Of a stretch of 30,382 nucleotides of DNA, positions 3,409 to 10,882 are shown one piece after another. How positions within the stretch are numbered: position 1 is the stretch's first letter; the number at the start of each line of letters is the position of its first letter. The translations under genes and the position numbers were made by a program. This stretch comes from a virus: the IMG/VR virus record IMGVR_UViG_3300021371_000073, positions 1 through 30,382 of that record. One strand, 5' to 3'. The notes beneath the pieces were generated by a model. That model saw only the letters and a program-made list of their open reading frames with translations. It was not told where the DNA came from and made no database searches.

Positions 3409-3783
3409 ATGGAACGAAACAAATTAGTTGAGTTATACAAGAAGTATAATTTAGAAAAATCAGATGTATTTAAACACCAACACTATGTAATTATTACAAG
3501 GCAAGGAATAGAAAAAATACAAGCACAAGAACAAATCAAAATAAAATTTGATGTAATAAAATGCGAACCTAACTTTGCAGTTGTAAAAGCAGTAAATGAA
3601 AACATTGAAACTTTTGGATCAGCTTATAAAGGTGCAAGTTTTAAAGAGGGTAACACCAATAGTTGGTACGTAATGGAAATGGCAGAGAAACGTGCATTAT
3701 CAAGAGCAGTATTAAAACTAACTGGGTTTTATGAACTTGGTGTTTTTGGTGAAGATGAAAGCGAAGATTTTAAAAAGAAATAA
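3409..3783 (+). CDS. Conserved phage protein, possible recombination/annealing role
   Basis: A 124-residue protein. It has an N-terminal helix, a beta-rich middle (HYVIITRQGIEKIQ..., KIKFDVIKCEPNFAVVKAV), and the segment WYVMEMAEKRALSRAVLKLTG near residues 85-105. The last segment resembles the 'AE-(T/K)-(S/R)-A-x-x-R-A-x-x-x-x-G' element of ERF- and Rad52-like single-strand annealing proteins, and the gene lies near NinG, nucleases and SSB. It is shorter than typical annealing proteins and I cannot assign it with confidence. It is one base away from the methylase gene that follows, so the two are co-expressed. Confidence 0.65.
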   Translation: MERNKLVELYKKYNLEKSDVFKHQHYVIITRQGIEKIQAQEQIKIKFDVIKCEPNFAVVKAVNENIETFGSAYKGASFKEGNTNSWYVMEMAEKRALSRAVLKLTGFYELGVFGEDESEDFKKK

Positions 3784-3784
3784 A

Positions 3785-4930
3785 ATGATAAAAATAAAAG
3801 AAGAATTTAAAAGTTTAATACCACCATTAACAACTGAAGAATTTAAGCAGTTAGAAGATAATTGTTTAGCAGAGGGTATAAGAGAAAAAATAATTACTTG
3901 GAATGGTTTTATTATAGATGGGCATAATAGGTTTGAAATTTCTAAACGATGTAATTTAGATTTTGAAACTAAAAGTAAACATTTTGATAGTGAAATAGAT
4001 GTTAAAATATGGATGGCTTACAACCAATTAGGTAGAAGAAACTTAATGGATTTTGTAAAAGGCGAACTATATTCTACTATTGAAGAACTTTTAAAAGAAA
4101 AAGGAAAAAAGAATATAATTGAAGCACAAAAAGAAAGACATTCTGGAGTAACTTTATCAACTATTGATAAAGATAGAAAACACAACACACAAAAAATAGT
4201 TTCTAAAAAACTTGGATGGAGTACTGGTAAGAAAGCAATGTTTGATGTAGTTAAAAAGAAAGCAACAGAAGAAGTAAAAGCAAAATTAAGAACTGGTGAA
4301 GTAAGTATTAATGCTGCTTATAAAGAAATAAAAAAAGAGGAAAAGAAGCTTATACGTTTAGAAAAAATAGAAGAAATAAAAACAGAAATAGCAAAAGGAT
4401 TAAAAGCACCAAATGGCTTGTACGATGTTATTGCAATAGATCCACCTTGGGAGTATTCAGAAAGAGGGGGAAGTAATAGTAAATCATTTGACGATGATGG
4501 AAATAGAGGTGGTGTGGATTATCCAACAATGACTGTTGAAGAACTAAAAAAAATTAATATACCTTGCAAAGATGATTCTGTAATTTACTTATGGACTACA
4601 CACGCATTTTTAAGAGATGCTTTTGATTTATTAGAAGCTTGGGGTTACACATATAAAGCAACTATTGTATGGGATAAAGTAAGTATGGGTATGGGTAGAA
4701 ATATTAGGATGCAAGTAGAATTTTGTTTATTGGCTACAAAAGGAAAGCCTATATTAGATGGTTCTGGTGAAAGAGATATTATAACAGAAACAAGAAGACA
4801 ACATAGTAGAAAACCAGAAGCCTTTTATACAAAAGTAGAAAATATGACTGCTGGGTATAAATTAGATTATTTTGCAAGGGAACAAAGGGATGGTTGGTTT
4901 ACATACGGAGCAGAGGATGGCAAATTTTAA
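3785..4930 (+). CDS. ParB-like domain fused to MT-A70-type adenine methylase
   Basis: A 381-residue fusion. The N-terminal part (about 1-100) has a ParB/Srx-like core with the hallmark DGHNR at residues 45-49. A Lys-rich helical linker follows (about 110-205). The C-terminal domain has DPPW at 219-222, the catalytic signature of MT-A70-family DNA N6-adenine methyltransferases, followed by a YPTMTVEEL segment typical of phage members. ParB-MT-A70 fusions are widespread in phages and probably protect DNA from host restriction or mark it for another phage process. The ATG at 3785 directly follows the upstream stop; an in-frame TTG further up lies inside that gene. It overlaps the next gene by 14 bases. 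Confidence 0.85.
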   Translation: MIKIKEEFKSLIPPLTTEEFKQLEDNCLAEGIREKIITWNGFIIDGHNRFEISKRCNLDFETKSKHFDSEIDVKIWMAYNQLGRRNLMDFVKGELYSTIEELLKEKGKKNIIEAQKERHSGVTLSTIDKDRKHNTQKIVSKKLGWSTGKKAMFDVVKKKATEEVKAKLRTGEVSINAAYKEIKKEEKKLIRLEKIEEIKTEIAKGLKAPNGLYDVIAIDPPWEYSERGGSNSKSFDDDGNRGGVDYPTMTVEELKKINIPCKDDSVIYLWTTHAFLRDAFDLLEAWGYTYKATIVWDKVSMGMGRNIRMQVEFCLLATKGKPILDGSGERDIITETRRQHSRKPEAFYTKVENMTAGYKLDYFAREQRDGWFTYGAEDGKF

Positions 4931-5387
4931 AGAAGCATTAGAATTTGGAGAAGAGGGAGAAAAAGAAGTAGCATTGTTTTTAATGAATAAAGGTTATACT
5001 GTATTACCTTTGTACCAATTTAATAAAGAACACGCACCTTTTTTACTTTCTATAAATGTTAAAATTACTTTACCAGATTTAGATTGTTATCATAAAACAA
5101 AGCCAAGTATATATGTTGAAGTAAAAAGCAAAAACCAATGGAATATAACGAACAAAATTATAGAAACTGGTTTTGATTTAAAACACTTTAAAGAATATAT
5201 AAAAATACAAGACAAAACAAATAAAGAAGTATGGGTTGTGTTTAACCACAAAGGTAAAAATGAGGGTATGTATATTATTAAGTTAAATAAATTTCATAGA
5301 AAATGGGATGGTAAAAACAATAAAGGAGAAATAAAGTCAAAGGCTTTGGTTTTTTACAAAAAAGAAGATTTACAAAAAATTAAATAA
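4917..5387 (+). CDS. Putative PD-(D/E)XK nuclease
   Basis: A 156-residue protein (MANFKEALEFGEEGEKEVAL...). A GEEGEKEVALFLMNKGYTV N-terminus, then LPDLDC and YVEVKSK at about residues 50-75, gives the D...ExK arrangement of the PD-(D/E)XK nuclease fold. The rest is basic and beta-rich. I chose the ATG at 4917 over an upstream ATG at 4872, since 4917 starts at the conserved-looking N-terminus and gives a 14-base overlap with the methylase. It could be a structure-specific or resolvase-like nuclease; the substrate is unknown. It is co-transcribed with the methylase and lies upstream of SSB. Confidence 0.72.
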   Translation: MANFKEALEFGEEGEKEVALFLMNKGYTVLPLYQFNKEHAPFLLSINVKITLPDLDCYHKTKPSIYVEVKSKNQWNITNKIIETGFDLKHFKEYIKIQDKTNKEVWVVFNHKGKNEGMYIIKLNKFHRKWDGKNNKGEIKSKALVFYKKEDLQKIK

Positions 5388-5388
5388 A

Positions 5389-5418
5389 ACACGAGGTATT
5401 GCGTGTATTGACAATACC
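5389..5418 (+). promoter_or_regulatory. Candidate H-type RNA pseudoknot in the SSB leader
   Basis: Stem 1 is ACACG (5389-5393) with CGTGT (5402-5406), 5 perfect pairs. Stem 2 is GGTATTG (5395-5401), which is the loop of stem 1, with CAATACC (5412-5418), 7 perfect pairs. Loop lengths are 1, 0 and 5 nt, the geometry of a compact coaxially stacked pseudoknot. An A/U-rich unstructured stretch of 19 nt follows, up to the SSB ATG at 5438. In T-even phages a pseudoknot leader nucleates SSB (gp32) binding to its own mRNA; the analogy is inference. Confidence 0.55.
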
Positions 5419-5437
5419 AAAATTTAATATATAAATT

Positions 5438-5743
5438 ATGAGTACATTAATTAATGGTTCAATTAGAGTAGACAAACTGCCAAAAGAAAAGTTTGTGAAA
5501 GGAAAAGATGGTGCAGTTTATTACAACTTTACTATCGCAGTAAATGATGAAACACGATACGGAAATAACGTAGCGTTTATGGATTCACAAACAAAAGAAG
5601 AACGTGAAGCAAAAATGCCAAAAACCTATTTAGGTAATGGTAAAGTAGTATGGGTTTCAGATGGAACTATACAAGTAGCTGAACGTGAAGAAGAAAAGGT
5701 ATTAGTACCAGTAGATGAGCAAAGTGGTGATTTACCATTTTAA
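5438..5743 (+). CDS. ssb: Single-stranded DNA-binding protein (SSB)
   Basis: A 101-residue OB-fold protein: MSTLINGSIRVDKLPKEKF, then YYNFTIAVNDETRYGNNVAF and GNGKVVWVSDGTIQVA. It ends in an acidic tail and the hydrophobic tip GDLPF, like the DDIPF tail by which bacterial SSBs recruit partners. It is shorter than bacterial SSB (about 170 residues), with the linker reduced. It would coat single strands during phage replication and recombination. A terminator immediately follows and a pseudoknot-capable leader precedes, so it may be autoregulated. Confidence 0.85.
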   Translation: MSTLINGSIRVDKLPKEKFVKGKDGAVYYNFTIAVNDETRYGNNVAFMDSQTKEEREAKMPKTYLGNGKVVWVSDGTIQVAEREEEKVLVPVDEQSGDLPF

Positions 5744-5748
5744 ATTTA

Positions 5749-5780
5749 AAAGGGTGTTATTAATTTAACACCTTTTTTTT
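5749..5780 (+). terminator. Rho-independent terminator after SSB
   Basis: GGTGTTA (5753-5759) pairs with TAACACC (5766-5772), extendable by AAAG/TTTT flanks, with a 6-base loop. The T-tract begins at 5773. Confidence 0.87.
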
Positions 5781-10021: not shown

Positions 10022-10882
10022 ATGAAAACAGTAAATAGTTTAAGTGGTGGTAAAACATCATCATACATAGCAGCTAATTATACTGCTGATCATAATGTAT
10101 TTGCTTTAGTAAGAACAAATGATAAGAACTGTATTTTTCCCGATAAAAAAATAAGACAAGAGGTTAGTGATAGAATTGGAACTGAATTTGTTGGTACTTT
10201 AGAAATGGACACAATAATATATACTATGTTGGATTTAGAACAATATATAGGTAAAAATATTATATGGACAACAGGTTTAACTTTTGAAAATTTAATAGAT
10301 AGTCCATCAAATAATATGTTGCCAAGTCCATTAAGAAGATATTGTACTGCTGAATTAAAAATGAAACCTATATTTGATTGGTGGTTAAAAACTATTGGTA
10401 AACCTGCAATTTTTAGAATAGGGTTTAGAGCAAATGAACAAAACAGAGCAAAAAATGTTATTGAAAAATATAATAAAAATGGTTTTTTAGAAATGAAACA
10501 TATAATTGGTAAACATAAAAATGGTAATAATAAATGGAAAATTACTGAATGGCAAAGACAAGAACACCCATTAATATCAATAGATAATCCAATATATAAA
10601 GATGATATAGAAAATTATTGGAATAACAAACCTGTAAGATTTGCTAAATTAAATAATTGTGTAGGTTGTTTTCATAGAAGTATTCCATTACTTAAAAAAA
10701 TGTGGCAAACACACGAAAATAAAATGCAGTTTTTTTCAAATTTAGAAAAAAATAGAAAATACCCTAAAGATACTTTAACTGCTAAAGACACAACATACGA
10801 ACAAATTAAAAATTGGAAAATACAAACAGAATTGTCATTTGATGATTTTGATGAATGTGATTCGGGATATTGTGGAATATAA
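10022..10882 (+). CDS. PAPS reductase-like (PP-loop) protein
   Basis: A 286-residue protein that starts MKTVNSLSGGKTSSYIA; SGGKTSS (8-14) is the PP-loop of the adenine-nucleotide alpha-hydrolase superfamily (PAPS reductase, DndC, tRNA thiolases). Cys residues lie at RRYCTAELK, in NNCVGCFHR (CxxC) and near the C-terminus (ECDSGYCGI), possibly forming a metal or Fe-S site. Phage members are often labelled CysH-like but their substrate is unknown. With a DNA methylase close by, sulfur or nucleotide chemistry on DNA or tRNA is possible but unproven. No DndD/E-like partner is present. Confidence 0.75.
   Translation: MKTVNSLSGGKTSSYIAANYTADHNVFALVRTNDKNCIFPDKKIRQEVSDRIGTEFVGTLEMDTIIYTMLDLEQYIGKNIIWTTGLTFENLIDSPSNNMLPSPLRRYCTAELKMKPIFDWWLKTIGKPAIFRIGFRANEQNRAKNVIEKYNKNGFLEMKHIIGKHKNGNNKWKITEWQRQEHPLISIDNPIYKDDIENYWNNKPVRFAKLNNCVGCFHRSIPLLKKMWQTHENKMQFFSNLEKNRKYPKDTLTAKDTTYEQIKNWKIQTELSFDDFDECDSGYCGI

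Follow-up and report, generated by a model that had tools for sequence, protein, structure and literature searches.

The leader of a gene for a single-strand-binding (SSB)-like protein in an uncultured virus was found to contain an H-type pseudoknot built like the operator in the leader of T4 gene 32. Sequence analysis demonstrated the fold and showed that it covaries among relatives, occurs before this gene exclusively, keeps a fixed spacing from the start codon and shares the T4-operator architecture. By analogy with T4, we consider it rather likely that the leader knot is an autogenous translational operator of the phage SSB with a gene 32-like mechanism; binding of SSB to the leader and the repression that would follow are what we infer from that analogy. 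The DNA analysed here, called the window, is the whole 30,382-nucleotide stretch of an uncultured IMG/VR virus record (IMGVR_UViG_3300021371_000073). Relatives of its portal protein, helicase and SSB come from Nonlabens, Flavobacterium, Polaribacter and Tenacibaculum phages, which indicates a tailed phage of Flavobacteriaceae.

Pseudoknot in the leader of the SSB-like gene

The SSB-like gene (5438-5743, + strand) encodes a protein of 101 amino acids with the tip ...GDLPF and is followed on its 3' side by an intrinsic-terminator-like hairpin (5748-5777, + strand). Read from the stop codon of the preceding gene, the + strand of the leader runs ...TAA, A, ACACG (5' strand of stem 1, 5389-5393), A (loop 1, 5394), GGTATTG (5' strand of stem 2, 5395-5401), CGTGT (3' strand of stem 1, 5402-5406), ATTGA (loop 3, 5407-5411), CAATACC (3' strand of stem 2, 5412-5418), the tract AAAATTTAATATATAAATT (5419-5437) and ATG; both 3' strands were assigned from sequence and covariation. 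The earlier note had described two perfect interlocking stems with loop lengths of 1, 0 and 5 nt, and a 19-nt A/U-rich stretch leading to the SSB start, and all of its coordinates proved right in the sequence. The geometry of the knot, given as stem 1, loop 1, stem 2, loop 2 and loop 3, is thus 5 bp, 1 nt, 7 bp, 0 and 5 nt. The single A of loop 1 spans the 7-bp stem 2, and loop 3, which occurs also as AATGA, TATGA and ATAGA, crosses stem 1.

A descriptor that allowed Watson-Crick pairs only and required G/C content in both stems was run over the whole window. This knot was the sole match on the + strand, and the - strand gave none. Under a looser rule (perfect stems of 5 and 7 bp, loop 1 of 0-2 nt, loop 2 of 0-1 nt and loop 3 of 3-9 nt) the window held two knots, and 300 dinucleotide shuffles scored by that rule gave 0.37 perfect 5 + 7 bp knots per 30-kb strand, or about 6e-4 per 49-nt leader. 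The nested fold of the leader was unremarkable by itself (z -1.34). Comparative evidence decides, and on that evidence we accept that the pseudoknot in the SSB leader is real.

Covariation of the stems

Relatives were collected from IMG/VR by using the SSB-like protein as query, which gave 80 loci. Their leaders were of two kinds: about half carried the knot, and the rest had a short A/U leader only. Fourteen distinct leader versions from the IMG/VR relatives were aligned. Across these versions 98.8% of cells were paired, double-sided changes were present in 4 of the 12 pairs, and true mismatches were confined to two (versions v5 and v9). The covariation score was 0.248 in comparison with 0.105 for shuffled alignments, none of 500 shuffles reached 0.248, and slid registers were all far worse than the true register. 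The covariation test that the earlier note had suggested for related SSB leaders therefore came out in favor of the fold, as homologous leaders keep the stems by compensating changes.

Stem 2 was better supported than stem 1, with 3 of its 7 pairs changed on both sides in relatives. Its compensated versions included GGTGTTG/CAACACC and GGCATAG/CTATGCC, together with single G.U changes, and GGTATAG/CTATACC occurred in combination with ACACT/AGTGT as stem 1. In stem 1 one pair covaried, 5393-5402 (G-C, U-A or U.G), and the other four never did; owing to the ACAC repeat, a partner slid by -2 keeps part of this covariation signal. The A of loop 1 and the GA of loop 3 were invariant in all 14 versions.

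The minimum-energy nested fold of the leader was the stem 2 hairpin (-8.9 kcal/mol over 66 nt), which would suit a simple hairpin, with stem 2 extended by 2 bp beyond a bulge, in place of a pseudoknot. However, the two extra pairs of that hairpin broke in 3 and 1 of the 14 variants without compensation, whereas stem 1 was kept paired in 98.6% of cells with one pair compensated. A simple hairpin is thus most improbable in comparison with the pseudoknot.

The pattern of changes also had a strand. Four one-sided changes kept or made a pair, and all four were G.U on the + strand (C>U twice, A>G twice), where the opposite strand would have A.C mismatches. In a knot of this geometry 1 nt spans a 7-bp deep groove and 5 nt span a 5-bp shallow groove. 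The loop lengths fit the + strand only, as on the - strand a single nucleotide would have to cross a minor groove of 7 bp. The G.U wobbles and the loop lengths argue for an element that acts at the RNA level, in the SSB-like mRNA.

IMG/VR was also scanned with one stem left free at a time, and the counts from these scans are of stretches and not of independent phages, some contigs having been fetched twice. With stem 2 wholly unconstrained, 108 distinct stretches were obtained, in 64 of which all seven stem 2 pairs formed, while the other 44 had 0-6 pairs. All 64 perfect stretches lay 48-50 nt before the start of this SSB-like gene, and in all 64 the free stem 1 pair was complementary too. Among the 44 imperfect stretches a single one (L042) precedes the SSB-like gene; it is one of two with 6 of 7 pairs and represents the same element with a mismatch. 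When stem 1 was left free, 36 of 37 stretches had 5/5 pairs and one had 4/5.

Identity of the SSB-like protein

Pfam SSB (PF00436) matched the 101-aa protein with 16.5 bits (E=0.009), where the gathering score of the family is 26, and at E<0.1 it matched 3 of 33 relatives. The window protein belongs to the family phrog_24909, as does each of the 33 relatives examined; one relative also gave a weak match to phrog_378, an SSB family (E=0.029). An acidic C-terminal tip, DLPF (or DLPFN, DLPW, SLPF or QLPF), was present in nearly all 33. The AF2 model of the protein (pLDDT 72) had a strand order compatible with an OB fold, and the fold search with this model returned no PDB match. Comparison by hhalign, limited to two host SSBs, gave no clear result for or against homology. 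The gene is set among recombination and replication genes, with a DnaB-like helicase adjoining, and a Rad52-type protein is encoded in the neighborhood of one relative. Because of the sub-threshold Pfam match, the acidic DLPF tip and the gene context, the protein is likely an SSB, and we refer to it as SSB-like.

Start region and transcription context

Among knot-bearing leaders the tract from stem 2 to the ATG occurred in 16 distinct versions, all 18-20 nt long, with no G and at most two C; the window has 19 nt of A and U only. No conserved pairing between the knot and this tract was found across the knot-bearing leaders. A pairing of loop and start region, with 9 pairs that include 3 G.U, was best in the window only and not above chance in other leaders, and it was treated as a chance feature of this sequence. 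Bacteroidota are not known to rely on Shine-Dalgarno pairing.

No flavobacterial TAnnTTTG promoter box was present between 5013 and 5437 on the + strand, and the leader is therefore probably part of a longer, polycistronic transcript. The earlier note had made its reading depend on a transcript that does not begin downstream of 5389; judged by this box, no such downstream start is indicated.

The transcription context bears on an alternative in which the knot has a structural role in the mRNA, without sensing SSB, and either marks or protects the 5' end after polycistronic processing, or blocks nucleases and keeps the landing site open for high SSB output. In most knot-bearing loci the knot lies 1-2 nt 3' of the stop codon of whatever gene is upstream, the 400 bp that precede the SSB-like gene lack the box, which makes polycistronic transcription probable, and the T4 gene 32 mRNA, which RNase E cuts just upstream of its knot, is very stable (PMC3014915). 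A structural role needs no restriction to SSB genes, yet each of the 64 perfect occurrences precedes this gene, and it leaves the exact T4-operator geometry unexplained. We therefore regard a purely structural element as rather unlikely and prefer an operator that responds to SSB.

Two coding explanations were rejected. A stop-readthrough or frameshift signal does not fit the stop-to-ATG distances, which at 49, 50, 51 and more nt keep no frame. The knot is also not the coding C-terminus of the upstream gene, for in the loci without read-through the stop codon lies 1-13 nt before stem 1 and the genes are unrelated. In seven loci (L001, L002, L035, L122, L149, L155 and L189) the upstream ORF does read through the knot DNA, ending like TRGIACIDNTKI. 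Ribosomes on the upstream ORF would cross the knot in these loci, and coupling is possible there.

Variable gene slot upstream of the knot

The gene 5' of the knot differs between phages. In the window it is a candidate small PD-(D/E)XK-like nuclease gene with the motif VEVKSK (4917-5387, + strand), given here as context only, the stop codon of which lies 1 nt before stem 1. Several of the small proteins in this position have PD-(D/E)XK-like motifs, and two of them gave weak Pfam matches, to UPF0102/NERD and to VRR_NUC. The slot is hypervariable, with at least seven different small proteins (window 4917-5387; L018, L128, L180, L122, L001 and L082). An MT-A70-type DNA methyltransferase gene (3731-4930) overlaps the nuclease-like gene of the window, and the same pair recurs in L372-L375; it looks like a phage-borne restriction-modification or self-protection set. 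The window also has, at 10022-10882, a gene of the phosphoadenosine phosphosulfate reductase family (phrog_424, E=1.4e-15), possibly tied to DNA modification or sulfur metabolism.

Relatives of these nucleases also precede SSB-like genes without the knot (L372-L374, L478 and L480), so the slot and the knot are independent. Conversely, in 14 cases no nuclease gene intervenes and the element lies directly 3' of the usual recombination-type gene. The possibility that the knot is part of the upstream nuclease-like gene was rejected, as nucleases occur without the knot and the knot without nucleases.

These data bear also on a DNA-level element, such as a repressor operator made of inverted repeats, a single-stranded DNA structure, or a recombination or homing target at the variable slot. 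Such an element would account for a slot filled by many different small genes, several of them PD-(D/E)XK-like, and for a gene switch point that coincides with the 5' edge of stem 1. However, the nuclease genes before element-free SSB-like genes and the 14 elements that directly follow a recombination-type gene speak against it, as do the one-sided changes, which are wobbles on the + strand and A.C on the other, and the interlocked arms, which have knot-allowed loops on the + strand only. A DNA-level element is very unlikely on this evidence, and an RNA operator is retained as the preferred reading.

Distribution and exchange between phages

The knot was seen only in contigs of uncultured marine flavobacterial phages. 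Inspection of the leader or intergenic gap in the isolated flavophages elemo, Tenacibaculum JQ, Polaribacter P12002L and Olleya Harreka_1 revealed no element, and a pattern search of 397 Flavobacteriaceae genomes gave 0 matches. The element had no Rfam match at gathering or relaxed thresholds; because T4's own gene 32 knot has no matching Rfam family either, absence from Rfam says little. No earlier description of this knot was found in the literature searched, which was limited to open-licence papers.

A tree of 120 SSB-like proteins, many forks of which are unresolved, implies 5 switches between presence and absence of the knot, at least three of them on well-supported branches. The protein of one relative (L003) is 97% identical to the SSB-like protein of the window and its gene has no knot. 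As SSB-like proteins up to 97% identical do without it, the knot is useful but dispensable. Knot-bearing leaders of the MSAIINYS group retain their own A/U tract downstream, which indicates that the exchange introduced the knot plus upstream DNA. The knot was probably passed between related phages by recombination, with its upstream boundary at the 5' edge of stem 1.

Proposed mechanism

In the mechanism we propose, the leader RNA folds as a compact H-type pseudoknot, the unpaired A/U-rich RNA of about 19 nt lies 3' of it, and this tract would hold a ribosome landing site without a Shine-Dalgarno sequence. When SSB is in excess over the available single-stranded DNA, one molecule would dock on the pseudoknot, binding of further molecules would extend through the unstructured tract and cover the start codon, and translation of the SSB's own mRNA would be shut off, as by gp32. 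The element would have arisen independently of that of T4 and moved between related phages by recombination. Phages that have the knot and phages that lack it can encode SSB-like proteins as much as 97% identical, and such natural pairs allow a direct test.

Independent T4-style autoregulation of SSB had been suggested in the earlier note. Its structural side was borne out, more fully than one sequence would lead one to expect, by the fold, the covariation, the exclusive position before the SSB-like gene and the kept tract length. Regulation by the SSB itself would be the probable function; the identity of the SSB is likely but has weak support, and many close relatives do without the element.

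Comparison with known leader RNAs

Pseudoknot RNAs of the STAXI motif are often found near SSB genes (Weinberg et al. 2010, PMC2864571). STAXI RNAs consist of pseudoknots in tandem, two or three in number and frequently with UUCG tetraloops, and occur also near topoisomerase, antirestriction and integrase genes, whereas the window has a single knot without a tetraloop, found only before the SSB-like gene. In place of the at least two tandem pseudoknots of STAXI, one such knot was present in the window, with no Rfam match.

E. coli rpsO, which encodes ribosomal protein S15, is under autogenous translational control through a leader pseudoknot (PMC3014915). The likeness to rpsO is one of description, the gene being a different one and its product a ribosomal protein. 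An H-type leader knot used by S15, together with the invariant A of loop 1 and GA of loop 3, would fit a regulatory RNA that controls SSB translation in response to another ligand, be it a host ribosomal protein, another phage protein or a metabolite. However, the element is confined to SSB-like genes, it matches nothing in Rfam, and no conserved alternative fold sequesters the start region. Control by another ligand is quite unlikely, and control by SSB itself, as in T4, remains our preferred reading.

One descriptor was applied to the gene 32 leaders of T4, T2 and other Tevenvirinae, and it matched those of T4, T2 and three more. The T4 leader (TGCC A GCTATGA GGTA AAGTG TCATAGC) gave 4/1(A)/7/0/5, that of T2 gave 5/1(A)/7/0/7, and that of a Mosigvirus (the genus of RB69) gave 5/1(A)/7/0/5, equal to the values of the window. 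The leaders of Jiaodavirus (Klebsiella phage ValerieMcCarty03, L493) and Winklervirus (Serratia phage LC53, L494) gave 4/1(A)/7/0/5 and 5/1(A)/7/0/4, respectively, and the gene 32 leader of an Aeromonas Tulanevirus gave no knot by the same descriptor. The parallel with the T4 gene 32 leader that the earlier note had drawn in structure and position was confirmed by this shared geometry in five Tevenvirinae leaders, with A as loop 1 throughout. The knots of Jiaodavirus and Winklervirus combine T4 geometry with other stem sequences, so that with them the T4 knot could be tested for covariation.

The element of the window is like those of T4, T2 and RB69 gene 32 in being H-type, with a stem 1 of 4-5 bp, a loop 1 of 1 nt (A), a stem 2 of 7 bp, no loop 2 and a loop 3 of 4-7 nt. 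As in T4, it lies in the leader of a phage SSB or SSB-like gene, and an unstructured, A/U-rich tract with UUAA/UAAA elements leads from it to the start codon. The T4 knot is the nucleation site for gp32, the binding of which then extends over the unstructured, UUAAA/UAAA-rich start region (PMC535899; PMC3014915). A variable or homing gene slot lies directly upstream in both cases; the homing endonuclease gene segG in this position in T4 (PMC535899) is a parallel worth noting, no more. The knot is also missing from some close relatives in both groups, as in RB49, a T4-like phage without a gene 32 knot (PMC535899).

In contrast, the spacer is 19 nt here and 29-54 nt in T4-type leaders, no Shine-Dalgarno sequence is present here, the hosts are Bacteroidota and not Enterobacterales, and the downstream protein is a 101-aa SSB-like protein and not the 301-aa gp32. 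The SSB-like protein showed no similarity to gp32 (BLASTP E=8.2 over 10 residues). The knot sequences of the window and of T4-type phages were unrelated apart from the A of loop 1 and the first G of stem 2, and blastn of the leader against phages gave no T4 gene 32 leader among the matches listed. Because of the lack of protein similarity to gp32, the element is described as one that may work like the T4 operator and is not filed as a homologous member of the T4 type. The T4-like operator probably arose a second time, by convergence rather than common descent, in an element whose 30 nt could not reveal a deep common origin.

We give about an even chance to a broader proposal, that phages of Bacteroidota independently evolved an autogenous SSB operator with an identical knot (5/1A/7/0/5), a non-homologous SSB and no Shine-Dalgarno sequence, that this knot is a preferred way for single-strand-binding proteins to recognize RNA, and that the operator spreads as a recombination cassette between SSB leaders. 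If true, a second case backed by covariation, notable for its different SSB and for hosts that initiate without Shine-Dalgarno pairing, would make a recurrent solution of what has been a textbook curiosity, and comparison of the two would help to explain how a protein that binds single strands irrespective of sequence selects its own mRNA.
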